Shown here: one piece after another, positions 21,923-48,775 of the stretch
Position numbering within the stretch: position 1 is the first letter of the stretch
How the letters are laid out: the number at the start of each line of letters is the position of its first letter
NCBI RefSeq assembly: GCF_009766065.1
Contig: NZ_LMUE01000002.1
Span: 1 to 64,000, forward strand
Direction: 5' to 3'
DNA: 64,000 bases
Source of the DNA: Dyella sp. S184
GTDB taxonomy: Bacteria; Pseudomonadota; Gammaproteobacteria; Xanthomonadales; Rhodanobacteraceae
Made by a program: the position numbers and the translations under genes
The notes under the pieces: model-generated
The model's database searches: none
The model's input: the letters and a program-made list of their open reading frames with translations, nothing else
What the model was told of the DNA's origin: nothing

Positions 21923-21952
21923 GTAAGTGCGGCCGGCAGAAGAAAAGGTTGC
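21923..21952 (-). promoter_or_regulatory. ECF-type promoter P1 (ABC exporter)
   Basis: On the minus strand: GCAACC (21952-21947), 16-bp spacer beginning TTTTC, then GCACTTAC (21930-21923). It lies about 98 bp before the ABC exporter start. It matches the six sister sites in both boxes and in spacer length. Confidence 0.75.
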
Positions 21953-22099
21953 GCGCCGCCATCACGAACGATTGGTGGCGACAGTCGAGCAGTGGGTGGC
22001 AAGAGGGGCAGATCGCTCCCCTTGCCGCCGTGACCGTTCAGTGACGTGGACCTTCAATCCGGTGTTTGACCGCCGCTCTTCCGGGAATTTCGAACGTCG

Positions 22100-22711
22100 C
22101 TACGGTGTCTTGCCTGCCTGCAGGTGTTGCACGATGGCCAGCGACCGCTTCACATGTTCGTCCGGCCGAAGATGATCCGTCTCCGAGGAAAGCGTGGCGA
22201 CGATCTTGCCGGTGCTGTCGATGACGAAGGTCGTGCGCGGAATGAAGGCGTGATCGATTGCCACGCCGCGCACATCGTTCATGCCAGCCTGCGCCGCGAC
22301 GGCCTTGAGGTCATAGGAAAGTGCGACCTTGACGTCGGCATCGGAGGCGACCGGAAACTTGCCGGCGCAATACTTCGGATCCGCTGAGAAGGCATTGAGG
22401 CGCTCGATGCTGTCAGCCGACACGCCGATGATGGTCGCGCCGGCCGCATCGAACTTGTCCCGGTTGGACGCAAAGTTATGTGCCTCCAGATCGCAACCTC
22501 CCGTGTACGCCGATGGATAGAAGTACACCACCACGGGCCCTTTCTTGAGGGCATCGGCAAGGGAGAAAGTGAAATCCTTGCCTGCCTGGCTGGCCCGTGC
22601 CGTGAATGTGGGTGCCGTAACACCCGGTCCGAGTGCGGCGAAGGCCGGCATCGCCGAAGCCAGCGCCACCAGCGCACCCAGTGCCATCGATCCTGCAAGA
22701 CGCTTTTTCAT
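22100..22711 (-). CDS. Exported peroxiredoxin (AhpC/TSA, BCP-like)
   Basis: The 203-aa thioredoxin-fold peroxidase has a Sec signal peptide (MKKRLAGSMALGALVALASA, cleavage after AFA). The peroxidatic site is YPSAYTGGCDLEAHNF, in which the usual TPGC is TGGC; the peroxidatic Cys is kept. A further Cys (KYCAGKFP) could resolve. It should reduce peroxides in the periplasm with an unknown reductant. The ATG at 22711 follows GAGGG and gives the proper signal peptide. The gene follows the HPr-kinase-like gene and its coupled 61-aa gene, with a 52-bp gap, and is probably read from promoter P2. Confidence 0.9.
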   Translation of the reverse strand: MKKRLAGSMALGALVALASAMPAFAALGPGVTAPTFTARASQAGKDFTFSLADALKKGPVVVYFYPSAYTGGCDLEAHNFASNRDKFDAAGATIIGVSADSIERLNAFSADPKYCAGKFPVASDADVKVALSYDLKAVAAQAGMNDVRGVAIDHAFIPRTTFVIDSTGKIVATLSSETDHLRPDEHVKRSLAIVQHLQAGKTP

Positions 22712-22763
22712 TGCTGTGACCCTCATGGAGGAGCATCGACCCGGCATGGAACACATCCGTGCT

Positions 22764-22949
22764 TCAGTCCGCTGCCCATTTGACCTTGAACTGCCCCAGA
22801 TTTTCCGGGGATCCCGACACTTGAGAAAGGTGGAGCGCACCCGGCGACCATGCCACTCGCTCCGATGCTTCTATCTTCGCTACAGATATGTCCAACGTTA
22901 CCTGCCCGATGCAATGCAACACCGTGGCATCCGGCGCGATCGGCGGCAT
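22764..22949 (-). CDS. 61-aa protein translationally coupled to the HPr-kinase-like gene
   Basis: The ATG (22949-22947) overlaps the kinase TGA (22951-22949) by one base. The peptide starts MPPIAPDATVLHCIGQ, contains one Cys and two Trp, and ends FKVKWAAD. It has no signal peptide and no obvious leader/core structure. Overlapping start and stop plus operon position support it as real. It could be a PqqD-like or other accessory protein, or a substrate of the kinase or radical SAM enzymes. None of these is shown by sequence, and I do not recognise a family. Confidence 0.45.
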   Translation of the reverse strand: MPPIAPDATVLHCIGQVTLDISVAKIEASERVAWSPGALHLSQVSGSPENLGQFKVKWAAD

Positions 22950-23986
22950 CAATCAAGAAGCCTGCACAGTGCATCGACGGAGGCCCGTGGATGATGCCCA
23001 CGGCGCAACTGGTGGACACCCAGCTGCATCAGCCGCTGTTCGAAGCGATGCCAGCCCGGCTGCCCGGCAGCATACGACTGATCGGCGGACAGCCGTGCGG
23101 CGATTTCGTCCCTGGGGACAGGACTCAACAGGACATCGGGATCGTCGGCTGATTGACCGGAAACGAACACCGCACCGACCAGCTCCAGCGGAGTCGTTGC
23201 GAGCCGACGATGTCCCTGTCGCAAATCGGCCTCGAACTTCTCGACCCCACTGCGGCGTCGGATAACGGGGGCCCGTCTGATCCAGCGTCGGGTCTCCTCG
23301 TCATCGATGAAACGCAGTGCATCGCCCTGCACGTGCAGGTAATTGGCGACGCCGGTGGCGAGCAGGCTCTCGGGCTGCACGAAAACCGCGTCTTCGGCGA
23401 GAAAGTCCAGCCCCCGCAGCACACTGTGCAAGGCCAGCGTCGATTTGCCCGAGCCGCTGGCTCCCAGCAACAGGATACCGCGCCCCTGCCGACCGACGCA
23501 GGCGCCATGCAGGGGAACCAGGCCCAGTCCGCGCGTCGCCAGAGTGAATACGGCAAATTCGATGAGCTCGTAGCGCAGATGGTAGGGATGACTGAGCATG
23601 TCCTCCGAGACCACTACCAGTGCGCGGTGCTGTTCGGGCGCCAGGATCACGTAGTTCGACGAGTCCATGATGCCGCAAAGCAGGCCCGCGCCTGACTGGG
23701 TCTGCACTGGCGGCGGGTCCGCGATAGCCGGCGACGCCTGACGAAGCAACAAGTGCAGCTCGATGCGGAATTCCGGTACGGCGTTCGGTAGCCTGTGCGA
23801 CGGCAGGCCGGCATAGGCTGCGCCCACCAGTTGCAGCAGCGCCTCGCTGTTGCTTTCGAAGCGGAAGCATCCGCCCAGGATCTGCCGACACTCCGAGAAA
23901 CGGCGGTCAGCGGAGCGCTCGCAAAAAGGGTCTGCACCGGCGTCTTGAACACCGGCGCAGAAGCCAAGGCCATCGTCGTCGATCAA
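22949..23986 (-). CDS. HPr-kinase-like (HprK-related) P-loop protein
   Basis: The protein has the HprK/P-type C-terminal core: LVPLHGACVGRQGRGILLLGASG followed by SGKST (P-loop), LDFLAEDAVFV (Asp pair), and a long C-terminal region. No HPr is encoded nearby, so the substrate is not the PTS. HprK-related proteins of this kind occur with nucleotidyltransferases in exopolysaccharide and peptide-modification clusters. An open frame extends to ATG 24085, but the P2 promoter (24045-24074) lies within that extension, so a start near TTG 23986 (345 aa) is preferred. The true start is uncertain. First gene of a kinase-orf61-peroxiredoxin operon. Confidence 0.8.
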   Translation of the reverse strand: MIDDDGLGFCAGVQDAGADPFCERSADRRFSECRQILGGCFRFESNSEALLQLVGAAYAGLPSHRLPNAVPEFRIELHLLLRQASPAIADPPPVQTQSGAGLLCGIMDSSNYVILAPEQHRALVVVSEDMLSHPYHLRYELIEFAVFTLATRGLGLVPLHGACVGRQGRGILLLGASGSGKSTLALHSVLRGLDFLAEDAVFVQPESLLATGVANYLHVQGDALRFIDDEETRRWIRRAPVIRRRSGVEKFEADLRQGHRRLATTPLELVGAVFVSGQSADDPDVLLSPVPRDEIAARLSADQSYAAGQPGWHRFEQRLMQLGVHQLRRGHHPRASVDALCRLLD

Positions 23987-24044
23987 AAGTTTCAGCCGTC
24001 TGATTGCCGGGCGCCGTGCTGCGCGAATTGCGAATAGGTTGTCA

Positions 24045-24074
24045 GTAGGTACCGTTTCAGCGGAAAAAGGTTGC
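24045..24074 (-). promoter_or_regulatory. ECF-type promoter P2 (kinase-orf61-peroxiredoxin)
   Basis: On the minus strand: GCAACC (24074-24069), 16-bp spacer, GTACCTAC (24052-24045). Over 30 positions it differs from the sigma-gene promoter P7 at only two, spacer included. Transcription would begin near 24038. Confidence 0.75.
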
Positions 24075-24161
24075 GTCGGCAACATCGCCGCAGGCGATCC
24101 CGGTTGCGACGTGTCAACGACGGTCCGCAGCGCGCACTACTCGAATATTTTTCCGCACGAG

Positions 24162-24191
24162 GCAACCGAAGCAGCACGCCGGAGCACTCAC
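24162..24191 (+). promoter_or_regulatory. ECF-type promoter P3 (radical SAM operon)
   Basis: GCAACC (24162-24167), 16-bp spacer, GCACTCAC (24184-24191). It is divergent from P2, about 90 bp away. The leader to the radical SAM ATG at 24283 is about 85 nt and holds a 16-codon frame (from ATG 24238) that overlaps that start. Confidence 0.75.
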
Positions 24192-24282
24192 GTCCAGTCA
24201 ACGTTGATCGTTGGAGCCGGCTCGCCGGCCCGGCGCCGATGCGCTGCCACAGCGTGCCCCACGGCTTACGAGACCCTTTGCG

Positions 24283-25794
24283 ATGCTAAAGATCCAGGTT
24301 GGCCACTCCTACTTCTTGGCTTACGACCGGAAGCAGTGGGAGCGCGGCAAGCCCTATCCCCCACTCGCCACGATCCAGGTCGCTGCACTGCTCAGGCAGA
24401 TGGGACATGCCGCCACCTTATTCGATGCGATGCTGGCCGATGGTGTCGAGGCTTACGAAGCCTCTTTGCAGACCGCCCGACCGGACTTGGTAGTCATCTA
24501 CGAAGACAACTTCAACTACCTGACCAAGATGTGCCTCAGTCGCATGCGCGAAGCAGCCTGCCAGATGATTACCGAGGCGCGCGCCCACGGTGCCCGGGTG
24601 ATCGTTGCGGGCTCCGACGCTTCCGACCACCCGGATGCCTTTCTCGCGGCGGGTGCAGATGCCGTGCTGATCGGCGAAGGCATAGCAGCCTTGGTCGAAT
24701 TGATCGAGCGGGTGGACCGCGATCCACAGATCACCACCTCGAACTGGACATCCGCCATCCCAGGCGTCGCGACGCTGGTGAATGGACAGACGCAGCTGCT
24801 GCGCATGGGCGCACAGCCGCCGGATCCGCGACTGACCGGCCAGCCCGCGTGGGATCTGGTCGATATTGAACGCTATCGCACGATGTGGAACGAACGACAC
24901 GGCTACTTCAGCCTCAACATGGCGGCGTCGCGCGGCTGTCCATTCCGCTGCAACTGGTGCGCCAAGCCGATCTGGGGCAATCACTACAAGCAGCGTGGCC
25001 CCCGGGACATCGCGGCGGAGATGACGTACCTGAAACAGACGTTCAGGCCCGATCACATATGGCTGGCTGATGACATCTTCGGCTTCCACGTCGACTGGGT
25101 CACGGAGTTCGCCGAGCACCTGCGCACTGCCGACGGGTCGGTGCCGTTCACCATCCAGACCCGCGCCGACCTGATCAGCGAACGCATGGCCTGCGCGCTC
25201 GAACAGGCCGGCTGCGCGGAAGCCTGGATCGGTGCGGAAAGCGGCAGCCAGCGCGTGCTGGACGCGATGACCAAGGGCACCAAGGTCGCCGACCTGATCA
25301 CCGCCCGCATGCGGCTAGGCGAACGCGGCATCCGAGTGGGCTTCTTCATCCAGCTCGGCTATCTGGGCGAACACCTGGCCGATCTGCTGGCCACCCGCGA
25401 GCTGGTCACGCAGGCCGCACCGGACGACATCGGCGTCAGCGTTTCCTACCCGTTGCCCGGCACGAAATTCTACGAGCGGGTCAAGGCCCAGCTTGGGGCA
25501 AAAACGAATTGGCAGGACAGCGATGACCTGGCCATGATGTTCCGCGGCGCCTACGACTCGGAGTTCTATCGTCGTGTGCGCGACCTGCTGCATGAGCAGG
25601 TCACACTGCAGCAATCGAAAGCTGTCACGGAACCGGAGCGTTACCGCCAGGACTGTGCCGCACTCGATGCGCGATGGAATGCGTTGATCGCCTGCGAGCA
25701 CGCGCACCGTACCGAAGCCGTCACGTCACTGCTCTCGACCGTGCAAGACAATGCCCAGGTGCTCCGTCATGCTGCCACCGCTAAAAACCGTTAG
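24283..25794 (+). CDS. B12-binding-type radical SAM protein
   Basis: The 503-aa enzyme has an N-terminal cobalamin-binding-like Rossmann domain (ATIQVAALLRQMGHAATLFDA; VIVAGSDASDHPDAFLAAGADAVLIGEG) and a radical SAM barrel with the CX3CX2C cluster at Cys219, Cys223 and Cys226 (RGCPFRCNWC). Later motifs include IWLADDIFGF and EAWIGAESGSQRVLD. The B12 domain lacks the DxHxxG base-off histidine motif, as in many class B enzymes. These enzymes commonly methylate unactivated carbon or phosphorus, or rearrange carbon skeletons. The start at 24283 begins the conserved domain. First gene of an operon with the nucleotidyltransferase, methyltransferase and flavin-reductase-like genes. Confidence 0.9.
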   Translation: MLKIQVGHSYFLAYDRKQWERGKPYPPLATIQVAALLRQMGHAATLFDAMLADGVEAYEASLQTARPDLVVIYEDNFNYLTKMCLSRMREAACQMITEARAHGARVIVAGSDASDHPDAFLAAGADAVLIGEGIAALVELIERVDRDPQITTSNWTSAIPGVATLVNGQTQLLRMGAQPPDPRLTGQPAWDLVDIERYRTMWNERHGYFSLNMAASRGCPFRCNWCAKPIWGNHYKQRGPRDIAAEMTYLKQTFRPDHIWLADDIFGFHVDWVTEFAEHLRTADGSVPFTIQTRADLISERMACALEQAGCAEAWIGAESGSQRVLDAMTKGTKVADLITARMRLGERGIRVGFFIQLGYLGEHLADLLATRELVTQAAPDDIGVSVSYPLPGTKFYERVKAQLGAKTNWQDSDDLAMMFRGAYDSEFYRRVRDLLHEQVTLQQSKAVTEPERYRQDCAALDARWNALIACEHAHRTEAVTSLLSTVQDNAQVLRHAATAKNR

Positions 25795-26983
25795 AGACGG
25801 CTTGCGCCGAACCACCGAAACGCTTGCCGTGGAGCTGGTGCAGCCAGGCAGCACCGCGCCAGAGTGGAGCGAACTCGAATGGCAGCTCGCCGCGGCCGCC
25901 GCGGCCGCACACGGCGTGTCGCCGCTGCTTTGCAAATCTTCCCGGTGGCAAAAACCGGAATGGAGACGGTTTCTCGAGAGTCAGCGCGAACACGTCGAGC
26001 TTCGCCATCGACGCATAGCGTCACTGCTGGAACGCATCGACACCGGCGCACGCGCCGCAGGGCTGGCCATCGTCGCCCTGAAGGGTTCCGCATTGCACGA
26101 CATGGGAATCTACATGCCAGGCGACCGTCCGATGGCCGACATCGACCTGCTGGTCCGTGAAGGCGATGCCGAACTGGCGAGCAAACTGCTGCGGGACCTT
26201 GGCTACGTGGAGTCCTTCGTCGCGTGGAAACATCGGGTATTCAAGCCTTCGACGGGCCAGCCCTCCGCGGTGCTGGGCGAACACCGCGATACCCCAGTCA
26301 ATATCGAGTTGCATACGCGTATCCAGGAGCGCCTGCCTGTATCGGCGATCGATATTACCGAGCGGATCTACCCGCGGGAGCCCGCACCAGGCTTGAATCC
26401 GTATCCGTCGAACGGCGCCTTGATGAACCATCTGCTGCTTCACGCGGCGGGCAACATCTGCGGCCGCAGCCTGCGTCTGTTGCACCTGAATGACATCGCG
26501 CTCCTGGCCACGCGCATGACCGCAGACGACTGGAACGTCTTATGGGATGAGCATGCCATCGACACCCCCTGGTGGGCGTTGCCACCGCTGCGTCTACTTA
26601 CACACTACTACCCGAGTGCGATTCCCAACGCAGTGCTCGCCCAGCTTGAACGCGACTGCCACCTTGTGTTGCGAGCCATCTCGCGTCATCAGACCCTGAC
26701 GCAAGTTTCGTGTTCGGATTTGTGGCTGCACGCCCTGGCTGGAATCGAATGGTCCCGCTCTGTCCGCGAAGTCGGGCGCTACGTCAGGAATCGTGTCAGG
26801 CCTCCTGGAGAAACCATCAAGGAGCGTGCCGACATGGTGCGGACACAGTTCTGGTTGCAGGGGCAAAGCTGGGTCAAGCAGCACCAGGGCCGGCGCATCC
26901 TGACCTTGCTCACCCGGTCGGTGCCGCGGATGGATACCTTGTACGTCGTACGTGCAGCACTGGAGTCGCCGGGGCTTCGGTGA
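25769..26983 (+). CDS. Nucleotidyltransferase-fold protein (NTP_transf_5 type)
   Basis: The 404-aa protein has the signature of the putative nucleotidyltransferase family PF14907: AIVALKGSALHDMGIYMPGDRPMADIDLLV near residues 92-121, including the paired Asp of DIDLLV, then NIELHTRI and HLLLHAA. Family members occur with HprK-related kinases in exopolysaccharide and lasso-peptide-like clusters; their chemistry is largely unproven. It overlaps the radical SAM gene by 26 bases and precedes a methyltransferase. Together with the HPr-kinase-like gene on the other side of the divergent promoters it suggests one modification system. Confidence 0.82.
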   Translation: MLPPLKTVRDGLRRTTETLAVELVQPGSTAPEWSELEWQLAAAAAAAHGVSPLLCKSSRWQKPEWRRFLESQREHVELRHRRIASLLERIDTGARAAGLAIVALKGSALHDMGIYMPGDRPMADIDLLVREGDAELASKLLRDLGYVESFVAWKHRVFKPSTGQPSAVLGEHRDTPVNIELHTRIQERLPVSAIDITERIYPREPAPGLNPYPSNGALMNHLLLHAAGNICGRSLRLLHLNDIALLATRMTADDWNVLWDEHAIDTPWWALPPLRLLTHYYPSAIPNAVLAQLERDCHLVLRAISRHQTLTQVSCSDLWLHALAGIEWSRSVREVGRYVRNRVRPPGETIKERADMVRTQFWLQGQSWVKQHQGRRILTLLTRSVPRMDTLYVVRAALESPGLR

Positions 26984-27656
26984 TGGGACATCAGTCAGTG
27001 AGTTTGTCAGCAAGGTAGTCGACGACGTGCATACCGGAGAGCAGTACCACCACTTCATGCTGGCCTCGCAGCGGGACCGGATAGTGCGCGACAGCTTTCA
27101 GAGGATCGCGCTGGATCTGCTGCCCGAGGGAGCAGAAGTACTCGATTTTGGTGCAGGTACCGGCATTGATGCGAAAGCTTATGCCGCTAATGGACATCAG
27201 ACCTTCGTATATGACCCGTCGGAGGCGATGTGCGCGCACCTGGCGCAGTACTGCCACGACGAAATCGCCCGCAAAACCATCGTCGAGATTGCCTCGCCGC
27301 TCGCCTGCAAGGTGCAGGCAGTCACGGCGAACTTTGCGGTCCTCAACCATTTCGCGGATCACACCTCGCTTTTTGAAGAATTGTCGCGCGTGGTCAACCA
27401 AGGCGGTTTTGTGCTGGCCAGCATGCTGAGTCCTTATTACCTCGGTGATGCACGTTACGGCTGGTGGCGGGCGAACGTCATGAATCTCGTGCGACGTGGT
27501 CACTACGCCATACCAAGCGAAAGTCGCATCCATCGTTTCACGCCACGTGTCGTGGCGCGGGCAGCTGCACCGCATTTTCGCCTGGAACGCCTCATTCCGC
27601 GCGGCTTCGGATTGGCTACCGATCTCTACATGTTCCTGCTATTCCGGCGGGTCTGA
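26952..27656 (+). CDS. Class I SAM-dependent methyltransferase
   Basis: The protein (up to 234 aa, GTG start) has the Rossmann motif I VLDFGAGTGIDAKAYAANGH, an acidic residue after strand 2 (VYDPS) and a post-motif segment VVNQGGFVLASMLSP. The C-terminal part (RFTPRVVARAAAPHFRLERL) is typical of small-molecule or lipid methyltransferases. The start is uncertain: GTG 26952 overlaps the preceding gene by 32 bases, and internal ATG 27058 is possible but would shorten the conserved N-terminus. The next gene begins one base after the stop. Confidence 0.85.
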   Translation: MQHWSRRGFGDGTSVSEFVSKVVDDVHTGEQYHHFMLASQRDRIVRDSFQRIALDLLPEGAEVLDFGAGTGIDAKAYAANGHQTFVYDPSEAMCAHLAQYCHDEIARKTIVEIASPLACKVQAVTANFAVLNHFADHTSLFEELSRVVNQGGFVLASMLSPYYLGDARYGWWRANVMNLVRRGHYAIPSESRIHRFTPRVVARAAAPHFRLERLIPRGFGLATDLYMFLLFRRV

Positions 27657-27657
27657 G

Positions 27658-28581
27658 ATGTGGAAGGACTGGATAAGGCCGTTCGTGCATCCCCTACCGC
27701 AATGGTCCACGGTTGCCGTTGCTCCTCCGCAGCAGGTGGTCACAGCGACCTTGCGATGGGACGGCAAATCGGCAGATGTCACAGCGGACCATACCGTGGC
27801 TTCGCTCAAGCCACTCGTGATCGCGACCAGTCTTGATGCCGGCCAGCGCCCGGTACTCGAGTACCGCGATAGCGCTAGTGGAAGGCTCCTCGGAGTTTTG
27901 CGCCTGATGCATATGACGGCGGTCGCTGCTGACAAGACCTCACTCGTCCTCTACCGCGTGGCAGCTGGCGGACACCGCTGTCTGGGCTGGTCGCGGCGCT
28001 CTTGGAACGCGTGGCTTCAGAACCGCCACATGCTGAAAAACCGCTCGTCGAATCACTTGAATACGGAGCCTGCCGCCGTACAGCAGCTCATGATCGCCTA
28101 TCTATGTCCGCGGCCGGTTGTCCTTGTCTCCATCGCCACGCCAGGCCAGCAAAATATCTTCCCGATGGATTTGATTGGTCCGTTGCAGCGAAGCGGGCTT
28201 TTTTCGCTTGCGCTACGCAGCACCAACGTTTCCGTGCCAGTCATGCGTGACGTACGCCGGGTTGCCCTGTCCAGCATCCCTGCGACGATGAAGGCGACCG
28301 TTTACAAGCTCAGCGCGCATCACAAGCAGCCGCTGCTGGACTGGCATGCGCTTCCGTTTCCTGTGCGGCTGTCGCGGGAATTTGGCATTCCCGCCGTTGC
28401 TGCGGCGTTGAGCATTCGGGAGCTCACCATCGTGCATAGTCAGGAGATCGGCTTGCACACGTTTTTTCTTGGCCGCATTACTTCCGACGAAAATTTGGCG
28501 AAAGGCGAGCAGCTGCATCACACGGCAGGCTTTCATCAAGCGTACCGCCGCCGGCAGGACATGCCGCTTGCGGAGGTCTAA
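27658..28581 (+). CDS. Flavin-reductase-like (FMN-binding split barrel) protein
   Basis: The 307-aa protein has a poorly conserved N-terminal half. Its C-terminal half resembles flavin-reductase-like domains: LCPRPVVLVSIATPGQQNIFPMDLIGPL, SLALRSTNVSVPVMRD, VALSSIPATMKATVYKL. In such proteins this fold binds FMN and may reduce a partner's flavin or act as an oxidoreductase. The ATG at 27658 follows the methyltransferase TGA by one base. It is the last gene of the P3 operon. It could supply electrons for the radical SAM reaction, but that is inferred from context. Confidence 0.65.
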   Translation: MWKDWIRPFVHPLPQWSTVAVAPPQQVVTATLRWDGKSADVTADHTVASLKPLVIATSLDAGQRPVLEYRDSASGRLLGVLRLMHMTAVAADKTSLVLYRVAAGGHRCLGWSRRSWNAWLQNRHMLKNRSSNHLNTEPAAVQQLMIAYLCPRPVVLVSIATPGQQNIFPMDLIGPLQRSGLFSLALRSTNVSVPVMRDVRRVALSSIPATMKATVYKLSAHHKQPLLDWHALPFPVRLSREFGIPAVAAALSIRELTIVHSQEIGLHTFFLGRITSDENLAKGEQLHHTAGFHQAYRRRQDMPLAEV

Positions 28582-28709: not shown

Positions 28710-29861
28710 TCACCTGTGTCTGGGGATTTCTGTCGGCACCGCTTCTTCAAATACTGTCCAATCCTCACCTGCAATACCTTGCACGCGTGGAGGCAATCCG
28801 GCGTCGCGCCGTAATCTCCTGCGCAGGCGAACGAATGGGCGCTCGATCAAGAAGTAGGATGCCAGCGCCGCGAGGAAAGCAAATACAAGGCTCTGCGGAA
28901 ACGCATTCACCCATGTATCGGATCCGCGATCAAGGAACACCTCCTGCCAGAGATACAGCGAGTAGCTCAATGTGCCAAGAAACACAACGGGCCTCCAATT
29001 GAGGAAGCGCCCCGCCAGCGCACCTGTATGGCGTGTGCTCGACTCGACCAGCAGTGCGAGGCACACATTGGTCACCGGTGACCCGAGGAGTATCACGACC
29101 GGATCGCCGCCCACTCTATTGAGCAGAACCACTACGGGCACCGTCAGCAGCAGCCAGCGGCTGGCGGTCAGGCGCAGATACCACGTCTGAGTCAGCAGCC
29201 ACGGCCGCAGCATCGCCAATGCACAACCCGTGGCCAGGTAATCGAACATGGCGGGAAAAATCGTCATTTTGCTGATGAGCACTTGGGGACCTGCGTGGAG
29301 AACCCATGCACGGATGGCCGCACGCAACAAAGCGCTCGTGAAAATCGCCACGATCGCGACGATCAGCGCGCGGCGTTCGCGCAAAGCCACCAGCATCAAC
29401 GGCCACAGCAAATAAAATTGCTCCTCGATCGACAGCGACCACAGATGGCCCAACTGCCACGGATGGCTCGGCGAATAGTTGAACCCGAAGGTCAGTGCGA
29501 AGGCGAAATCTTGGCTGGTCAGGTGCACTACCCCCAGCAACGCCGCGATCACCAAAACCAGGACGTATACATAGAACGCAGGAAAGATGCGCAATGCACG
29601 GCGCAAGTAGAACCGTTTCAACGAGATCGTCCCTGTCATCTCATGCTCGCTCATCAGCAGCGATGTGATGAGGAACCCGGAAATCACGAAGAACACCAGC
29701 ACGCCGAGATGGGCAACATCGCCGAACCAGCGCCCATAGCCGCCCGGGTTCGAGACAGGGAAATGCCGCGTACCGCTGAGGTGTCCGTAGAGCACCATCA
29801 GGATCGAGATCGCCCTGATTCCGTCCAGTGACGGTATGCGCCGGCCAGTCGAGTTCGACAT
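28710..29861 (-). CDS. Membrane acyltransferase family 3 (O-acetyltransferase)
   Basis: The 383-aa integral membrane protein has about ten helices and the acyltransferase 3 start RIPSLDGIRAISILMVLYGH, followed by LGVLVFFVISGFLITSLL, FYLRRALRIFPAFY and HLWSLSIEEQFYLLWPL, all hallmarks of the OafA/ExoZ family. The family moves acyl groups, usually acetyl, to extracytoplasmic sugars. The ATG 29861 lies 7 bases from the stop of the upstream glycosyltransferase, so it is the last gene of the P4 operon. It probably decorates the glycan made by the cluster. Confidence 0.93.
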   Translation of the reverse strand: MSNSTGRRIPSLDGIRAISILMVLYGHLSGTRHFPVSNPGGYGRWFGDVAHLGVLVFFVISGFLITSLLMSEHEMTGTISLKRFYLRRALRIFPAFYVYVLVLVIAALLGVVHLTSQDFAFALTFGFNYSPSHPWQLGHLWSLSIEEQFYLLWPLMLVALRERRALIVAIVAIFTSALLRAAIRAWVLHAGPQVLISKMTIFPAMFDYLATGCALAMLRPWLLTQTWYLRLTASRWLLLTVPVVVLLNRVGGDPVVILLGSPVTNVCLALLVESSTRHTGALAGRFLNWRPVVFLGTLSYSLYLWQEVFLDRGSDTWVNAFPQSLVFAFLAALASYFLIERPFVRLRRRLRRDAGLPPRVQGIAGEDWTVFEEAVPTEIPRHR

Positions 29862-29868
29862 GCTTGCT

Positions 29869-36585: not shown

Positions 36586-36615
36586 GTGAGTGCCAGCTGG
36601 GACTGTTTTGGTTGT
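36586..36615 (-). promoter_or_regulatory. ECF-type promoter P4 (methyltransferase-to-acyltransferase operon)
   Basis: On the minus strand: ACAACC (36615-36610), 16-bp spacer, GCACTCAC (36593-36586). The -35 box differs from the others at its first base only. It is about 108 bp before ATG 36477. The 225-bp gap between the two operons holds nothing else recognisable. Confidence 0.7.
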
Positions 36616-39684: not shown

Positions 39685-39686
39685 CG

Positions 39687-40937: not shown

Positions 40938-42061
40938 GCGGGGCACTCGAATGCCTGGCAGGCTTCGATCACCCGGTCCACCGCATCGTCGCTCAGCGTC
41001 GGTCCCATGGGAAGGCTCAGCACTTCATCGTGCAATCGTTCCGTCAGCGGCAGATGGGCCCCCCGCAAGGCGGCATAGGCCGGTTGCCGGTGTGGTGGCA
41101 CCGGATAGTGCACCTGACTCTGGATACCATGCACCTGTAAATGCTGTTGCAAGGCATCGCGGCGAGAACAGCGAACCACGAAGAGATGCCAGACGTGCCG
41201 TTCCTCCCGCGCCGCGTAGGGTAACTGGATCTGCGCGTTACTGATGCCTTCGCGATACCGACGTGCCACGCGACGACGCCATGCGATGTCCTCGTCGAGA
41301 TGCTTAAGTTTTACCCGAAGCATGGCGGCCTGGATCTCATCGAGCCGCGAATTGAGCCCCCTTTGGATGTGGTGGTACTTCACGGCAGAACCGTAATTGC
41401 GCAAGGCCGCGATTCGCTCTGCCAGCATGCTGTTGTCGGTTACCACGGCGCCGCCATCACCCAGCGCCCCAAGGTTCTTGGCGGGGAAAAAGCTGAAGGC
41501 CGCCGCATCGCCGAGCGCTCCAGCCTTGTGTCCGTCGCTCATCGCTCCATGCGCCTGCGCCGCATCTTCAATCAGGAGCAAGTTGTGCCGCCTGGCCAGC
41601 GCAGCCAATGCGGACATGTCCGCCAGCTGGCCATACAAATGCACCGCCACGATCGCGCGCGTACGTGGCCCGATGGCTGCCTCTACGCATGCCGGATCCA
41701 TATTGAAGGTTGCCTGACAAGGCTCGACCGGAATCGGCACAAGTCTGTTTTCGGAAATCGCAAGAAAACTGGCGATGAAAGTATTGCCCGGCACGATGAC
41801 CTCGTCGCCTTCTTCGATGATGCCGAGTTCCTTGTAACCGCGCAGGATCAGTGACAGGGCATCCAGTCCGTTGCCGACGCCCACGGTATGGCGAACGCCA
41901 CAATAGGCGGCGAACTCGTGTTCGAAGGCCGTCAGTTCTTCGCCAAGCACATACCAGCCTGAATCGATAACGCGCCCGGCCGCAGCCTTCAATTCGTCGG
42001 CATATCGCGCATTGACGTCCTTGAGACTGAGAAATGGGACGTCCATCAAGGCGGTGTCCAT
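40934..42061 (-). CDS. DegT/DnrJ aminotransferase, probable dTDP-sugar 3-transaminase (FdtB/QdtB-like)
   Basis: The 375-aa PLP enzyme begins [12 protein letters not shown] and has [44 protein letters not shown] and the Schiff-base lysine in [16 protein letters not shown]. The pattern fits sugar 3-aminotransferases such as FdtB and QdtB. The FdtA-like isomerase and acetyltransferase in the same operon supply the rest of the pathway, giving a dTDP-3-acetamido-3,6-dideoxyhexose (Fuc3NAc or Qui3NAc). The isomer cannot be decided here. ATG 42061 overlaps the preceding stop by one base. Confidence 0.9.
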
Positions 42062-42999
42062 CAGAGCGGCCATTCGTAAAAATCGTGCGCGATGGCGCGC
42101 GCGCCGAAATATTCCTTTTGCGCGATCAGGCCGCTGTTGATAACGCGCCCTTCCTGTTCAGTCGAAATGCCGAAACTGAAATAAGCTCTGGTCGCATAGA
42201 TGCCACCGATCAGTTCTGCAAGCAGAAAACTGAGCGCATCCAGGCGTCGCCCCTGCTCCGATGCAGCCATGTATTGGGTGTGCACGATCCTGCCGAAATC
42301 GTAGACAAGGACGCCCGCCAGCAAAGTGTCGTCATGGCGTGCCTCATGCAACACGATCTGCTCCGGAAAGCGCGCTTGCAGCAGATACAACTCCTGCAGG
42401 CGGTGGGTTGGCAGGGCGTCGTGCTTGCCCAACACATCCAAAAGCAGTGCATGAAAAGCCGCCGGATCGGCGCCGACCTGCAATCGGATACCCGCCTTCC
42501 TTGCCTTGTCGATGGCATGCCTGCGCCCCTGCGTGAAGTGAAATGTTTCCTGCAATGGGATGACCGAGGAAAGGTCGCGTCGCTTCAGCTGCGCTCCCAA
42601 CCGATGCAAGGCATACAAGTCCTCTTCGGCGGGGTAGGCATGAAACACATGCGGCACTGCCTTGTAGACGACACGTCCCACACCAAGCGAGCGATAGTGG
42701 TTGCCGATCTGTTCAAACACGGCCAGCGTCGATTCGGCGCGCAAGGTCTGCGTCGTTATAAGTCCGGCATAGGTAAGACCGCCGTGACTGGTCACCAGGT
42801 TCTCCTGGATGTTTGCAGGGAAAACCGCCACGGTCTGGCCGTTCCGCTCGACGATCAATGACCGGTCGACAAAGCGGTCGGCGTGGTAATCCATGTAACC
42901 GCGCCGATGCAACAGATTGCCGTTACGGGAATGCTCGACCAAAGCATCCCAGGCGTTCGCATCATCCTGGACATAAGGCCTAACCGTGAACATGCGCAT
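42061..42999 (-). CDS. FemAB/GNAT-like acyltransferase
   Basis: The 312-aa protein begins [20 protein letters not shown] and has two GNAT-like halves ([31 protein letters not shown] and [14 protein letters not shown]), as in the FemAB/BioF2-like acetyltransferases found in capsule and O-antigen clusters. It may transfer an acyl or aminoacyl group to the amino sugar. ATG 42999 (or 42993) gives the family N-terminus; it overlaps the beta-propeller gene by 20 bases. Confidence 0.8.
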
Positions 43000-43933
43000 C
43001 ACCGTCGAGGCAGGCGTGACTGGCCTCGGCCACGCCGAATCCATCCACTCCCATATCGTTGCCGTTGTAGAACATCAGTAGTTTGTCGCGCTGCTGGATC
43101 AACGCGGGATAGCAGATGACCCGCGAATCCCAACCACTGTCGGAAAGCGTCATACCAAACGCTTCGTCGCAACGTGCCCATCGGATGCCGTCATCGCTAT
43201 AGGCAACGCCGGGAAAGTATTCGCCGGTGAGGTTCCCCCGCGTGAAGTACATGACGTATTTGCCACCGAACCGGTACACACGCGGTCGGCCGATTCGATA
43301 CTCGTTGCCACGGGGCAGCAGGCAAACCTGATCTTCGCGCGGCATGGACCTCAGATCATCCGTCTCCACGTAGCGAATGTGGTAGCGCGGAAACGACTGA
43401 CCGTCGATGGTCTCCCAATCGTCACCAACTGCATACCACATGCGCCAGCGACCATTTTCATGAATGACCGAATGCACCGCGCCGATGGTGCTGCGACCGT
43501 GCGCACGGTCCAGGACAGGTGTCTCCTGTGTGCGTTCGAAATAATGGCCGCCATCGGTCGAGATGGCCAAGCCGGTAAAGGCCAGAAACTTGGCCTTGGC
43601 CACGCGCTGGAAACCCACATAGAACATGTGCAGGCCGCCTGGCGCATCGACGATATCGCCCAGGATCACGCCGTTGTCGTCAAAGCAGCCGTCCCGGCCG
43701 ATGTCGAGCGCCGGTTCCGTACTGACACGTACGATGATCGCAGGATCGTCTGCCCATAGGTCGACGTAACCTATGCGACTCACACCGTCAGCATCGCGAA
43801 AACCCGCGTACACGCGTATGAGATCATCGTCGATGCGATACGGGGTCGGTGTGAGCGCCGAATGACTCATCCAGCCGCCTACCCCATGCCGCTTGGTTTC
43901 GAACACGAGCCCTTTCTTGCTCCATTTGAACAT
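42980..43933 (-). CDS. Five-bladed beta-propeller protein of the glycosidase superfamily
   Basis: The 317-aa protein looks like the arabinanase/invertase-type propellers: LIRVYAGFRDADGVSRIGYVDL, GLHMFYVGFQRVAKAKFLAF, RWRMWYAVGD, RIGRPRVYRFGGKYVMYF and KLLMFYNGNDMGVDGFGVAE are blade-type strands with the internal spacing expected. There is no signal peptide, so it acts in the cytosol. Such proteins are common in O-antigen loci with no proven activity. A glycosidase or phosphorylase editing role is possible, as is a purely binding role. Confidence 0.8.
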   Translation of the reverse strand: MFKWSKKGLVFETKRHGVGGWMSHSALTPTPYRIDDDLIRVYAGFRDADGVSRIGYVDLWADDPAIIVRVSTEPALDIGRDGCFDDNGVILGDIVDAPGGLHMFYVGFQRVAKAKFLAFTGLAISTDGGHYFERTQETPVLDRAHGRSTIGAVHSVIHENGRWRMWYAVGDDWETIDGQSFPRYHIRYVETDDLRSMPREDQVCLLPRGNEYRIGRPRVYRFGGKYVMYFTRGNLTGEYFPGVAYSDDGIRWARCDEAFGMTLSDSGWDSRVICYPALIQQRDKLLMFYNGNDMGVDGFGVAEASHACLDGDAHVHG

Positions 43934-43940
43934 GCGCCCT

Positions 43941-44606
43941 TCAAAGCCTCACATCGAAGCTGGATTTTCCAGGCACCGCCTTGGCCGGCGAGCCGACGTA
44001 GATCCGTCCCGGCTCGGTATCACGCGTAACGAGCGCACCGGCGCCGACCAGATTGTCGGACGCGACTTTCACGTGATCGTTGAAGGTGGCGTTCACACCG
44101 ATGAAGCTGCTCTCGCCGATCTCGCAATAACCTGAAATGACCGCATGCGAGGCGACGAATACATTGTCACGCACGACCGTGCGATGTCCCACGTGGTTGC
44201 CGCTCCACAAAATGCAGTTGTTGCCGATGCGAACGAAGGGCTGGATGACGTTGCCTTCGAAGATGAAGCTGTTCTCGCCCAGCTCGACATTGCGCCATAC
44301 GAAGGCGTGTGTACTGACATACGTGGCAAACCGGTAGCCCCTACGCCTGGCGTCCTGATAGAAGCGCGCACGCAGACGATTGAGCTGACTGGCCGGAATG
44401 GCCACAAACACCTCGACTTCAGCCGGCGGGTAGTGTGCTTCCAGGGTCTCGTATGCCACCACGGGACGATCGGCCAGCGTCGGTTGTGCGAGATATTCGC
44501 GCTCGACACTGAAGGCCACCACGTCGTAGTCGCTATCGTGTTCGAAGTATTCGCAGGCGATCTGCGCAAACTCGCCAGCTCCGATCAGGACTAGCGGCCT
44601 TGACAT
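43941..44606 (-). CDS. Left-handed beta-helix sugar O/N-acetyltransferase (PglD/FdtC-like)
   Basis: The 221-aa protein has an N-terminal nucleotide-binding half (RPLVLIGAGEFAQIACEYFEHD) and a C-terminal hexapeptide-repeat helix (VELGENSFIFEGNVIQPFVRIG, ISGYCEIGESSFIGVNATF, NLVGAGALVTRDTEPG). The GNHVGHRTVV histidine resembles the catalytic base of PglD-type enzymes. In the operon it is the acetyltransferase needed after the FdtB-like transaminase. ATG 44606 overlaps the isomerase by 16 bases. Confidence 0.9.
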   Translation of the reverse strand: MSRPLVLIGAGEFAQIACEYFEHDSDYDVVAFSVEREYLAQPTLADRPVVAYETLEAHYPPAEVEVFVAIPASQLNRLRARFYQDARRRGYRFATYVSTHAFVWRNVELGENSFIFEGNVIQPFVRIGNNCILWSGNHVGHRTVVRDNVFVASHAVISGYCEIGESSFIGVNATFNDHVKVASDNLVGAGALVTRDTEPGRIYVGSPAKAVPGKSSFDVRL

Positions 44607-45028
44607 GCTGCCATGTCCTCGAAATACATGGCGCCGCTGACTTCGCGCATGAAATCGTCGTAATCGGTGATGTAATCGCTCTGGTCGTACAACTGGTCGG
44701 CCAGCACCATCAACACGCAATCCTCGCTGAAGTCGTACAGCTCGCGCCACACCATTCGGCCTAGCATCAGTCCATGCGAGGGATCGTCGAGCACAACCTC
44801 TACAGGTCCGCTGCCATCGTCCAGCAGAAAGGTGACGGAGCCTCGCACCGCTATCGCCAGTTGATGGAGATGACGATGCGCGTGCCGCCCCCGATGCACG
44901 TCGTTCTGCGTGGCGAAGATGTAATACACGCGCCGGATCACGAAGGGCACGTTCCGATCCTCCTCCAATGCGATGAGCATGCCGCCGTTGTCACCATGCT
45001 TCTGCAACTGGATTCGCTCGATTTCCAT
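44591..45028 (-). CDS. FdtA-like dTDP-4-oxo-6-deoxyhexose 3,4-ketoisomerase
   Basis: The 145-aa cupin begins MEIERIQLQKHGDNGGMLIA and has DVHRGRHAHRHLHQ, the His-rich active site of the FdtA/QdtA family, then SVTFLLDDGSGPVEVVLDDP and VWRELYDFSEDCVLMVLADQLYD. Length matches the family. It would convert dTDP-4-oxo-6-deoxyglucose to the 3-oxo sugar for the transaminase. It is the first gene of the P5 operon, about 38 nt after the predicted start of transcription. Confidence 0.92.
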   Translation of the reverse strand: MEIERIQLQKHGDNGGMLIALEEDRNVPFVIRRVYYIFATQNDVHRGRHAHRHLHQLAIAVRGSVTFLLDDGSGPVEVVLDDPSHGLMLGRMVWRELYDFSEDCVLMVLADQLYDQSDYITDYDDFMREVSGAMYFEDMAACQGR

Positions 45029-45073: not shown

Positions 45074-45103
45074 TTGAGTGCCGCGTAGCTGGCGAAAGGT
45101 TGC
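45074..45103 (-). promoter_or_regulatory. ECF-type promoter P5 (Fdt-Wzx-Wzy-Wzz operon)
   Basis: On the minus strand: GCAACC (45103-45098), 16-bp spacer, GCACTCAA (45081-45074). It is 46 bp before the FdtA-like start. Confidence 0.75.
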
Positions 45104-45187: not shown

Positions 45188-45217
45188 GCAACCTTTCATC
45201 GCACCGCAAGCACTCAC
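45188..45217 (+). promoter_or_regulatory. ECF-type promoter P6 (cytochrome operon)
   Basis: GCAACC (45188-45193), 16-bp spacer, GCACTCAC (45210-45217). It reads toward the cytochrome b561 gene. Confidence 0.75.
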
Positions 45218-45377: not shown

Positions 45378-45971
45378 ATGTCCATACCTGGCGCCGAAGG
45401 CGATCCGGGACGTTTGCTCGACGAGCCTATTGAAGAAATTGCACCGGAGCGCTCCAGGGCGTTGGTAGTCCTGCACTGGCTTACCGTACTTTTTCTGTTC
45501 ATCGCTGCGGCGCTAATCCTGATCCGTTCTGAAGTCTCCGGGCGAGCCCTCAAAATGTGGCTACTCGAGGGACACCGTCATTTCGGACTTTTCGTGCTGG
45601 TGCTTTTCTTTGTCCGTGTTGCCCTTCGCTTCCGATTCGGTAAGTTGCCCTCGGACAACGGTTCGTCGCGGCTAGTTCGACTACTTGCGGGGCTGACCCA
45701 CGTCGCCTTGTACGCGTTGCTGCTTGCTCAGCCTTTGCTCGGCTGGGCACTCAGCGATGCGCAAGGCCGACCAGTGCATCTATTCGGATTGACCTTGCCT
45801 GCCCTCGTTGGCGCTGATGAGGATGTCGCCGATGCCTTGCAGGTATGGCATCAGGATGCCGCGTGGCTATTGCTTGGATTGATCTCACTGCATATCGCCG
45901 CTGCACTCTGGCACCACTTCGTCCTTCGCGACGGCGTGCTGCGGATGATGTTGCCGCAACGTCGCCATTGA
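45378..45971 (+). CDS. Cytochrome b561-type inner-membrane dihaem cytochrome
   Basis: The 197-aa protein has four membrane helices and histidines in the expected places: VLHWLTVLF, EGHRHFGLF, LTHVALYALL and SLHIAAALWHHF. These fit the bis-His ligands of Ni-Fe hydrogenase-type and YodB-like cytochromes b561. It could pass electrons between the quinone pool and the cytochrome c encoded downstream. The start at 45378 follows AAGGAAG at 10 bp. First gene of the P6 operon. Confidence 0.88.
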   Translation: MSIPGAEGDPGRLLDEPIEEIAPERSRALVVLHWLTVLFLFIAAALILIRSEVSGRALKMWLLEGHRHFGLFVLVLFFVRVALRFRFGKLPSDNGSSRLVRLLAGLTHVALYALLLAQPLLGWALSDAQGRPVHLFGLTLPALVGADEDVADALQVWHQDAAWLLLGLISLHIAAALWHHFVLRDGVLRMMLPQRRH

Positions 45972-46023: not shown

Positions 46024-47397
46024 ATGTCGTCTTTTTTCAGTCGATGCGTGAGGTACCGTCCCGGGATCCTGGCGTTGTGCTACAGCTTTGCGACGCTGTT
46101 GATGTTCGCCAGCACCACCGTCCATGCGATCCCGGCGTATGCCCGACAGACCGGTTCCGCTTGTGCAGACTGTCACGCCGGCGCGTATGGCGGAGGGGGC
46201 AATGGACCGAATCTGACGCCTTACGGTATGCGCTTCAAGCTCAACGGCTACACCGATACAGACGACAATGGCAAAAAGATTCCCGTGGCCGGTCAGCTGA
46301 CGGAAACACATGACGCGCCAGCCCGTGGCAAGAGCTCCACCGACCTTACCGAAGCGGACCTCTACCTGGCCGGCCGCCTTACCGATCAGATCGGCGGCTA
46401 CGTCAAAGTCGAAGCCAATTACGCCGGTAACGACACCTATAAAACCCAGCTCAGCAATATCGATCTGCGCTTTGTCGCCAAGGACCTCAAGCTCAACGGC
46501 AAGGACCTGACAATGGGAGTAAGCGTCAACAACAGTCCAGGCTTCGACGACCCCATCGCCGTGCTGCCCGCGGCGGTAAATCTCGGACCGCCTGGTGGGC
46601 AAGGCCCCACCGGCACCTTCCTCAACGAGTCCAGCGCCAATTCACCGGCCGATCGCGTCATCGGCGCCACCGTCTACGGTCTGTACGACAAGGACTGGTA
46701 CGGCGAAGTCGGTACCTACAATTCGCTGCCTACCTCCACGCAGGATCACCTAGGTTATTCCATCTCGGGCGATCCGGGAAAGATCAGCGACACAGGATAT
46801 TTCCGTTTCGCGTACATGAAAGATCTCAAGCGCCAGTTCTTCTCGGCAGGCATCGTAGGATTGACGACCAGACGCCAGCTGCCGCGCACCGGTCCAGCGG
46901 ACGATCTCACCGACCTGGGCTACGACCTGACTTACCAGTTCCTGGGTAATCGCGAAAACATCGTGCAGGTCAGCTATGTGAACATTCTTGAAAAGCGCAA
47001 GTACGGCAGCACACCGGTAAGTCCGGTCGACCCCAGCCTCGTCGCTCTGCCACGCGGCGCACTGCACGACGAGAACCTCAGCCTCACCTACACCTTCAAG
47101 CAGAGCTATGGCGTGCAGCTTGCGCATCTGCAAAGCAATGGAACACGCGATGCGGTTCGATTCGGGCCGTATGGCAAGCCCGATACCACTGCCAATCTCT
47201 TTACCGTGTTCTGGGCGCCTTTCGGCAAGGAGGACTCTTTCACTTCTATCGCGAACTTGAAGCTCGCCGCCACCTGGTTCCGCTTCACACGGTTCAACGG
47301 CGTGACCGACAACATTTTCGGTGTTCCGTTGGGTGTTGCTACAACCAAGCCCGGCGACCTCAACGCGTTCCTGGTTACGGCAAGTGTGGCCTTCTAA
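46024..47397 (+). CDS. Cyc2-like fused monohaem cytochrome c-porin
   Basis: The 457-aa protein has a signal peptide (cleavage after VHA, near 35) and then IPAYARQTGSACADCHAG with a single CxxCH (Cys47-His51). LTPYGMRFKLNGYT follows. This order and wording match the N-terminus of Cyc2-type outer-membrane iron oxidases, in which a small haem domain plugs a 16-strand barrel. The remaining 380 residues alternate as outer-membrane beta strands and end in Phe (VTASVAF). A long Gly-rich insert lies after the haem site (GAYGGGGNGPN). AAGGAG precedes the start. Fe(II) oxidation or another outer-surface electron exchange is plausible, not shown. Confidence 0.78.
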   Translation: MSSFFSRCVRYRPGILALCYSFATLLMFASTTVHAIPAYARQTGSACADCHAGAYGGGGNGPNLTPYGMRFKLNGYTDTDDNGKKIPVAGQLTETHDAPARGKSSTDLTEADLYLAGRLTDQIGGYVKVEANYAGNDTYKTQLSNIDLRFVAKDLKLNGKDLTMGVSVNNSPGFDDPIAVLPAAVNLGPPGGQGPTGTFLNESSANSPADRVIGATVYGLYDKDWYGEVGTYNSLPTSTQDHLGYSISGDPGKISDTGYFRFAYMKDLKRQFFSAGIVGLTTRRQLPRTGPADDLTDLGYDLTYQFLGNRENIVQVSYVNILEKRKYGSTPVSPVDPSLVALPRGALHDENLSLTYTFKQSYGVQLAHLQSNGTRDAVRFGPYGKPDTTANLFTVFWAPFGKEDSFTSIANLKLAATWFRFTRFNGVTDNIFGVPLGVATTKPGDLNAFLVTASVAF

Positions 47398-47420
47398 AAA
47401 TACGCATAGGAAATCAGAAC

Positions 47421-47810
47421 GTGCCAAAGTTATTTTTGGGCCTCTCAGCCGCAGCACTCGTTTTAGGCTGCGCGCTGGCCTCCCGCTTTGCCCATGCCGC
47501 CGATGCCACCGTAGGGGCCGACGTCTTCAAGTCAGAGTGCGCCGAGTGTCACAGCCCCAAGGAGGGTCGCAATAAAAAAGGGCCCAGTCTTTTCGGCATT
47601 GTGGGGCGCAAGGCGGCGTCGTTGCCTGACTACAAATATTCAGACGCCCTGCGCGGACGAACCGATTGGGTATGGACGCCGGAGAAGCTGCATGGCTACT
47701 TGTCGCAGCCCGCGAAACAAACCAATCCCGGCACCAAAATGAAATACGATGGCCTAACTGATGCCAAGGACCTGGACGATCTCATTTCATATCTTGGTAC
47801 GCTGCACTGA
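47421..47810 (+). CDS. Class I cytochrome c (c2-like)
   Basis: The 129-aa protein has a signal peptide (to about residue 26; a Cys at 17 in VLGC could alternatively be a lipobox), CAECH at residues 40-44 and a Met ligand in PGTKMKYDGL. GPSLFGIVGRKAAS and LDDLISYLGTLH complete the cytochrome c fold of the c2/c550 type. GTG start with AGGA upstream. It follows the Cyc2-like gene by 23 bp. A periplasmic carrier between the outer-membrane cytochrome and the inner membrane is the natural role. Confidence 0.92.
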   Translation: MPKLFLGLSAAALVLGCALASRFAHAADATVGADVFKSECAECHSPKEGRNKKGPSLFGIVGRKAASLPDYKYSDALRGRTDWVWTPEKLHGYLSQPAKQTNPGTKMKYDGLTDAKDLDDLISYLGTLH

Positions 47811-47901
47811 TGATCTTGCCGGCCCCCGTCGATCAATCTGCGGGTATGGATACCGGTCGGGCCTGCACTGATCATTTGGATAATGAACCGATGATTTGCC
47901 C

Positions 47902-48738
47902 ATGATGGACTATCGATTCCCGTGCGCAGCGCTCTGTTTACACGATCGTCGTGTCCGCTCCCAACACACTCATGGCGTCACTCGACGTGACTCAGTCATC
48001 CGTGCGTGTCTTGGTTTCACCTTGCTCGCCGTTGGCAGCTGCCTTCCTCAGGCGCTGCATGCCCAATCGGCAACGTTCAACGGAACCACAGCACTCAGCT
48101 CGGAGTTGATCGACCGCGGTCAGGCGATTACCGGCAACACCCCAATCCTGCAGGGAGCTGCGTCCTGGACTTATCCAGCGGGCTGGTCGCTGGGCCTGTC
48201 GGCAAGCACGGAAGTGCGCTCACCCGGTCGTATTGTAGAAGCGCTCGCCCAAGCGTCTCGTTTTTGGTCGCTTTCCGACGACTGGCAGATGCAGGTGAGC
48301 GGGCTTTACTACAGATATCCCAGCCACACCCATTCAAAAGCCTATGATCGCGCTGAAACGGGCGTCAGCTGGACTTATCGGGACGTGCTGACCTTTGGCG
48401 TGTCGGCCATCTATGTGATCGGCGCCCAAAATTCGCAGCCACGCGGCGCCGCCGATCTGAGTTTCCACTGGCCATTGGTGTGGCATTTTTCACTTTCCGC
48501 GGGGGCGGGCGTGGCCCAACCGATCATTGCGCCCTACACCTCCTACCACTACGGTCAGGCCGCCCCCCATGGTTATGACCGTACAGGATTGTACGGCTAC
48601 GGCCATGCGGGGTTACTGTGGGCCAATGGGCCCTGGCAGATAGAGGTGGACCGGATCATGGCCGACGGCACAACACAGCGACAATGGGCCAGCCTGGGCG
48701 CCTCCCCCTGGGTCGCAACGATTTCGTGGTCCTTTTGA
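47902..48738 (+). CDS. TorF-like (Gcw_chp) putative outer-membrane protein
   Basis: The 278-aa protein has an unusually long N-terminus before a hydrophobic signal segment (VIRACLGFTLLAVGSCLPQALHAQ), then FNGTTALSSELIDRGQAITGNTPILQGAASW, the opening of the Gcw_chp/TorF putative porin family. Aromatic beta strands continue to a C-terminal Phe (WVATISWSF). It could be a channel for small solutes or a structural barrel. Start uncertain: ATG 47902 or 47905, or later for a shorter signal peptide. Last gene before the sigma operon. Confidence 0.75.
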   Translation: MMDYRFPCAALCLHDRRVRSQHTHGVTRRDSVIRACLGFTLLAVGSCLPQALHAQSATFNGTTALSSELIDRGQAITGNTPILQGAASWTYPAGWSLGLSASTEVRSPGRIVEALAQASRFWSLSDDWQMQVSGLYYRYPSHTHSKAYDRAETGVSWTYRDVLTFGVSAIYVIGAQNSQPRGAADLSFHWPLVWHFSLSAGAGVAQPIIAPYTSYHYGQAAPHGYDRTGLYGYGHAGLLWANGPWQIEVDRIMADGTTQRQWASLGASPWVATISWSF

Positions 48739-48745
48739 CCTGGAA

Positions 48746-48775
48746 GCAACCTTTTTGCGCTGAAACGGTACTTAC
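48746..48775 (+). promoter_or_regulatory. ECF-type promoter P7 (sigma factor operon, autoregulatory)
   Basis: GCAACC (48746-48751), 16-bp spacer, GTACTTAC (48768-48775), 39 bp before the sigma gene ATG. Nearly the same 30 bases form P2. Confidence 0.75.

Follow-up and report, generated by a model that had tools for sequence, protein, structure and literature searches.

Among the described systems close to the one analyzed here is that of Escherichia coli sigma E (RpoE) with RseA and DegS, in which, as in our case, an extracytoplasmic function (ECF) sigma factor is paired with a membrane anti-sigma factor that has a single helix. Sigma E controls its own gene, recognizes a −35 box of the GAAC type (GGAACTT) and has RseB as operon partner. 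The first 64,000 nucleotides of contig NZ_LMUE01000002.1 of Dyella sp. S184 (hereafter the window, meaning this whole stretch) contain a 30-kb gene cluster with genes for an ECF sigma factor (48815–49399, + strand), an anti-sigma factor (49396–50031, +) and an S8 subtilase (50028–51332, +), together with seven copies of the motif GCAACC-N16-GYACYYAM. We argue from sequence comparison that these seven elements are very probably −35/−10 boxes read by the cluster's own sigma factor, which would drive the whole cluster as well as its own gene; we further propose that this factor may be released through the anti-sigma factor and the subtilase.

Motif copies and their conservation at operon heads

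A sequence-only reading of this DNA had reported seven copies of the motif with identical 16-base spacers, and all seven are found where it placed them, six being exact and one having a single mismatch. The exact copies at 21923–21952 (−), 24045–24074 (−) and 24162–24191 (+) head the ABC exporter gene, HprK-Prx and rSAM1-NTP5-MT1-FlavR, respectively. The mismatched copy (36586–36615, −; the ACAACCAAA variant, with ACAACC) heads MT3-AmidH-MT2-rSAM2-GT4b-GT4a-AcylT. FdtA-Hexa-GH32-FemAB-DegT-Wzx-GT2-Unk464-Wzz and CytB561-HemPorin-CytC-TorF follow the exact copies at 45074–45103 (−) and 45188–45217 (+), and the last exact copy (48746–48775, +) heads the sigma operon itself, as expected under autoregulation. 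The same reading put every copy 39–190 bp upstream of a start codon, which fails for the copy at 36586, since a mere 15 bases separate it from the GTG codon at 36570. At HprK, the motif is present as claimed but the frame as opened at 24085 overlaps it, and the true start should therefore lie downstream, below 24045.

That the window holds no further copy also stood, as we found no exact match outside the cluster; with up to two mismatches, there are 11 matches in the window versus 4.5 expected (maximum of 100 shuffles, nine). A scan of the whole 4.23-Mb genome, set beforehand as a test that could refute the regulon, gave a frequency that is not random, with six exact matches, all confined to the cluster. 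When one mismatch was allowed, 17 sites were obtained, of which 11 have exactly one; a reversed-pattern control gave more (31), so that one-mismatch sites are uninformative by frequency alone. Elsewhere in this genome, away from the cluster, lies a lone one-mismatch site of the TCAACCTTT type (G000, C14:485988–486017; L115:7989); the nearest frame starts 146 bases on and is an 86-residue open reading frame (ORF) of no clear kind. We also scored the window and shuffled windows with a weight matrix built from the sigma-gene sites of other species. Six of the seven copies occupy ranks 1–6 in the window, five of them with scores of 18.5–40.5, far above the shuffles. The copy at 36586 scores 7.0, below the mean best score of a shuffled window (7.6; maximum of 20 shuffles, 13.4), and the copy at 24162 ranks tenth with a score of −0.5, because its GCAACC is not followed by TTT. 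Both copies nevertheless appear to be supported by their exact or near-exact boxes and by conservation in relatives, the place at 24162 having a site in 19 of 20 regions.

These 20 regions are the window and the surroundings of the sigma gene in 19 relatives, taken for each relative as two adjoining segments of up to 20 kb. Sites were counted as strict when they had a 16-base spacer, the first base being free, and a looser pattern was counted as well. The motif is kept at the same operon heads, with the same spacing and on the same strand. A strict site precedes rSAM1 in 19 of the 20 regions (20 with the looser pattern), HprK in 15 (looser, 18), the sigma gene in 15 (looser, 18), FdtA in 10 of 18 (looser, all 18) and CytB561 in 7 of 11 (looser, all 11); the counts for HprK and rSAM1, and that for the ABC exporter given below, include the second stretch of one relative (G104). 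For MT3, strict sites were found in 9 of 20 regions with the start used and in 11 within a wider span, mostly of the TCAACCAAA type in relatives, and for HemPorin in 2 of 13. Where a strict site precedes the sigma gene (15 places), 23–41 bases lie between it and the start codon. Each of the 87 strict sites, including the seven of the window, is followed within 420 bases by a match to a window gene on the same strand. Across the 20 regions, the internal genes tested are not preceded by strict sites, except MT1 (1 of 6), which in that genome (G102) heads its own operon. Varying the spacer length gave 87 sites at 16 bases, 2 at 17 and none at 10–15 or 18–22, and two scrambled-box controls gave zero and one matches. 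Such fixed spacing and orientation is the signature of a −35/−10 pair; with two boxes 16–17 bases apart oriented to the gene and a copy before the sigma operon, the elements have, by sequence, the layout of ECF-type promoters.

The comparison extends to Xanthomonas, where 10-kb flanks were read and the first-block promoters (HprK, rSAM1) fall outside. The form NCAACC-N16-GYACnnW is found before the sigma gene, FdtA and CytB561 at 27 of 27 loci each, and at 0 of 27 before HemPorin, DegT, Wzx, the anti-sigma gene, the subtilase gene and TorF; a scrambled control gave one match, at the subtilase. Cluster genes located elsewhere provide a further line of evidence. In a hand-picked sample of 20 outlying exact sites, 12 head orthologs of window genes, namely eight MT1 (seven with FlavR next to it) and four Prx. 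MT1 and Prx have thus moved elsewhere in relatives yet keep their promoter, and this speaks for selection acting to maintain co-regulation.

Sigma factor, anti-sigma factor and subtilase

The sigma protein (194 amino acids) matches only sigma-70 region 2, region 4 and the ECF model PF07638. It scores 66.9 against TIGR02937 (cut-off 42.9), giving it the regions of an ECF (group IV sigma70) factor, and the best-scoring of the specific NCBIfam models (best 25 of 67) remain below their cut-offs. Of the sigma factors with solved structures, sigma E (1or7) is the closest; in the region-4 helix IMQCPVGTVKARLFHAR, 12 of 17 residues are alike. Relatives of the gene occur in Rhodanobacter, Dyella, Luteibacter, Frateuria and Pinirhizobacter and, at lower identity, in Xanthomonas (70–73%), Luteimonas and Pseudoxanthomonas.

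The anti-sigma factor has the residues of a class I zinc anti-sigma factor in its cytoplasmic domain, H38, C42 and C45 (HX3CX2C) being invariant in 41 sequences; zf-HC2, the sole Pfam report at E-values up to 10, scores 15.6 for a cut-off of 22.2. The predicted model has a membrane helix at residues 98–122 (49687–49761) followed by an outer domain (predicted, 49813–50028). No match of this domain to the prodomain family was obtained by sequence (Pfam, E up to 10), and its predicted fold may be that of a subtilase prodomain (bABbAB). Among its top 20 aligned structures, 16 are subtilase prodomains or I9-type inhibitors, from only about five proteins; the scores of ACT domains, RRMs and ribosomal S6 are not much lower, and in a ranking by Foldseek alone chains of these kinds come out on top. 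A profile comparison with the N-terminal part of the subtilase keeps the register, but its signal (probability 5.6%, P = 0.007) is too weak to establish kinship.

The subtilase, which has a lipobox, keeps the Asp-His-Ser triad (D192, 50601; H225, 50700; S375, 51150) in 140 of 140 aligned sequences. The Asn of thermitase AAAGN aligns with Pro322 (50991), and proline is present in 139 of the 140, so that the protein lacks the oxyanion asparagine; its structure model is poor (mean pLDDT 54). A conserved Pro-Pro (50988–50993) stands in place of the thermitase Gly-Asn of the oxyanion hole, with the triad intact. The anti-sigma/subtilase gene pair occurs at 9 of 13 loci of other gammaproteobacterial families; at the other four, no subtilase was present in the stretch read, which in one case is a 2-kb contig. 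Two distant sigma/anti-sigma pairs (L224 and L227) have a similar anti-sigma factor and no adjacent subtilase.

These data bear on an alternative that we regard as evenly balanced, in which the subtilase is a housekeeping or glycan-maturation protease unrelated to signalling and the outer domain of the anti-sigma factor an ordinary ferredoxin-like one. Ferredoxin-like folds are common, as the scores of ACT, RRM and ribosomal S6 chains illustrate, and the four loci without a subtilase and the missing prodomain-family sequence match agree with it; on the other side stand the predominance of prodomains among the top structures, the recurrence of the gene pair in other families and the fact that the prodomain idea was recorded before the structure search. 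With less than even confidence, we tentatively propose a distinct ECF signalling class, in which the anti-sigma factor would carry a prodomain mimic and the subtilase, with its triad and without the oxyanion Asn, would be a receptor or slow timer that grips the mimic and times sigma release. One promoter type would then run the regulon from Rhodanobacter to Xanthomonas, joining a surface glycan modified by B12-radical-SAM enzymes to a trans-envelope electron path.

Probable assignment of the motif to the cluster sigma factor

We examined 147 genomes of the family, of which 55 have a sigma ortholog (defined by more than 300 bits) and 92 do not. Exact sites number 203 in the former (mean 3.7) versus 43 in the latter (mean 0.47), and at least two exact sites are present in 51 of the 55 ortholog-bearing genomes versus 9 of the 92 others (Fisher 3e−25); eight of these nine carry a divergent sigma homolog. 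It is mainly a set of 16 genomes, those eight included, with a sigma homolog of 44–51% identity and no rSAM2 match at the threshold used, that separates the sigma factor from the cluster. In 14 of them, NCAACC-N16/17-GYACnnA lies within 150 bases before the divergent homolog, the pattern having 20 matches in all 111 kb (both strands). By consensus score, a site precedes the sigma gene at 78 of 80 named loci.

Could the motif instead be the binding site of another regulator, an activator or repressor that has the sigma gene as just one of its targets? The motif copy before the sigma gene and the perfect co-occurrence of sigma factor and rSAM2 would fit, but the short asymmetric boxes, their fixed spacing, constant orientation and narrow range of distances to the sigma start, as well as the retention of the motif before divergent sigma genes in the absence of rSAM2, make this quite unlikely; moreover, family scans of the cluster genes gave no regulator beyond the sigma and anti-sigma factors. 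That another of the cell's sigma factors, either a second ECF factor or RpoE, reads the motif is very unlikely: the −35 box is similar to those of ECF factors in general and a first look at the genome yielded ten sigma-like frame candidates, but the cluster sigma factor has a single match at E 1e−25 or better in its own genome, and, across the family, motif abundance goes with the presence of this factor and of its divergent homolog. An origin as a repeated mobile or recombination element, to which the agreement of copies 24045 and 48746 at 28 of 30 bases might point, is hardly credible given spacers that vary by site and species while the boxes stay and strict sites that are all oriented to a gene start, and we rejected both it and chance.

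Several observations weigh against a regulon under the cluster sigma factor. Only 5 of 20 ABC exporter places have a strict site; copies 36586 and 24162 do not rise above the shuffles with the matrix of sigma-gene sites; and at 8 of the 20 outlying sites the gene that follows is not an ortholog of any in the window (one encodes an Acyl_transf_3 protein, and seven sites head no recognizable cluster gene). The strict pattern precedes the sigma gene at only 2 of the 27 Xanthomonas loci, and the species of this genus are close kin, so that 27 of 27 does not amount to 27 independent cases. In the family-wide counts, the reversed-pattern control is slightly higher in genomes with the ortholog (1.16 vs. 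0.72, P = 0.017), one genome (G005) has no exact site although the sigma factor is present, and 2 of the 16 genomes with a divergent sigma factor lack the site. Among the 147 genomes, the 55 with the sigma ortholog are precisely those with rSAM2, so that sigma factor and cluster are inseparable within this set. Finally, the support comes from sequence comparison, and the fold behind the proposed sensor is a prediction.

On balance, operon-head conservation, spacing, strand, the tracking of the sigma factor and the relocated genes that keep the motif support the single ECF regulon suggested by the sequence-only reading, whose observation is confirmed and whose interpretation is supported within this kind of evidence. 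In the mechanism that we propose for a regulon under the cluster sigma factor, RNA polymerase carrying this factor would start transcription at the operon heads, from elements in which 16 bases separate GCAACC, in many cases with TTT after it, from GYACYYA. The zinc-finger anti-sigma factor would hold the sigma factor at the membrane, the periplasmic subtilase would dock on its prodomain-like outer domain, and an envelope or redox signal would cause the subtilase to start the proteolysis that frees the sigma factor. Such a regulon would yield an envelope glycan with a dTDP-derived 3-amino-3,6-dideoxy sugar, together with an exporter, two B12 radical SAM proteins and methyltransferases as modifying enzymes, and an electron path made of b561, cytochrome c and porin.

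Gene content and comparison with known systems

By family matches, the first block encodes an ABC exporter (ABC_membrane and ABC_tran; 20065–21825, −), the AhpC/TSA peroxiredoxin Prx (22100–22840, −), the B12-binding radical SAM protein rSAM1 (24211–25794, +), an NTP_transf_5 nucleotidyltransferase (25751–26983, +) and the methyltransferase MT1 (26952–27656, +); the matches of the HprK-related protein (22949–24085, −) are below curated cut-offs and that of the flavin-reductase-like FlavR (27496–28581, +) is weak. On the minus strand follow acyltransferase 3 (28710–30029), the two group-1 glycosyltransferases GT4a and GT4b (29869–32111), the second B12-binding radical SAM protein, rSAM2 (32116–33633), MT2, an amidohydrolase and MT3 (33658–36570), the chain-length protein Wzz (36703–37752) and a segment with Unk464 (no Pfam match), GT2 and a Wzx-type flippase (37526–40946), the latter two by family match. 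Next on this strand are a QdtB-like DegT sugar aminotransferase (40934–42073), matched by family and structure, the weakly matched FemAB/GNAT-like and GH32/mannobiose-phosphorylase-like proteins (42061–43933), a hexapeptide acetyltransferase (43941–44750) matched by family and the dTDP-6-deoxy-3,4-keto-hexulose isomerase FdtA (44591–45028, with its ATG at 45028). The plus-strand operon encodes cytochrome b561 (45378–45971, likely start 45378), HemPorin (46024–47397), a c-type cytochrome (47421–47810, family match) and a putative porin of the TorF family (47896–48738; 43.3 bits, cut-off 47.15), and it is followed by the sigma operon, the sigma factor being matched by family and structure. The "outer-membrane cytochromes" of the sequence-only reading are thus right for part of this operon, but cytochrome b561 is of the inner-membrane type.

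FdtA and DegT match solved enzymes for the making of dTDP-3-amino-3,6-dideoxyhexose (2pa7, 1.5e−38, and QdtB, 3frk, 1.9e−114, respectively). The locus is thus like the FdtA/QdtA-DegT-acetyltransferase sugar pathways in these two enzymes, its acetyltransferase being nearest to VioB and PglD-like enzymes and its product sugar a predicted one. It does not belong by its FemAB protein to the XrtA/PEP-CTERM exopolysaccharide system, for whose specific FemAB model this protein scores 31.5 bits (cut-off 260.35). HemPorin has one CxxCH (CADCH) near its N-terminus and then a long part that gave no family or structure match in our scans, and its C-terminal part is likely an outer-membrane barrel. Its sequence may resemble that of the fused cytochrome-porin Cyc2, with which it shares, in outline, the single N-terminal CxxCH, followed here by a long part that may be a barrel. 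The general design of Cyc2, an N-terminal CxxCH and then a long barrel, is described in PMC5566968. HemPorin is also found in the Xanthomonas clusters.

Just upstream of the cluster (12281–20053, +) are genes for a CHAT-TPR protein, an FhaC/ShlB-type transporter and a filamentous-haemagglutinin-like exoprotein with a TPS domain, with no exact motif. Next after the subtilase gene comes that of the GTP cyclohydrolase FolE2 (51405–52364, +), in the same order in several relatives; in all 8 of the 8 regions compared it lacks its own motif, and read-through into it is possible.

Some 30 genes with no known joint purpose, found together in Rhodanobacter, Dyella and Luteibacter and partly in Xanthomonas (parts read), may now be considered as a single regulon that is open to testing and has a candidate for its switch, and the promoter motif offers a means of searching for additional members. 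We found nothing that names this sigma factor, its promoter or the anti-sigma/subtilase pair in the titles and abstract openings of open-licence literature. The anti-sigma factor differs from that of the SigW-RsiW system of Bacillus subtilis by its prodomain-like outer domain and its partner subtilase, neither of which, to our knowledge, is present in RsiW. This domain also differs from subtilase prodomains and I9 inhibitors, such as the subtilisin BPN' prosegment, POIA1 and the PC1/3 prodomain, in that it has no Pfam match and is fused to a membrane anti-sigma factor instead of preceding a protease domain. The pairing of subtilase and anti-sigma factor, if true, would be a new bacterial way of sensing the envelope and releasing a sigma factor. 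An autoregulated ECF regulon is in itself of a known kind, and what would be new lies in the anti-sigma/subtilase architecture and in the content of the regulon: compared with the sigma E system, the partner is a subtilase and not RseB, the second box reads GYACYYA, and the genes controlled would form a cluster for glycan synthesis and electron transfer.

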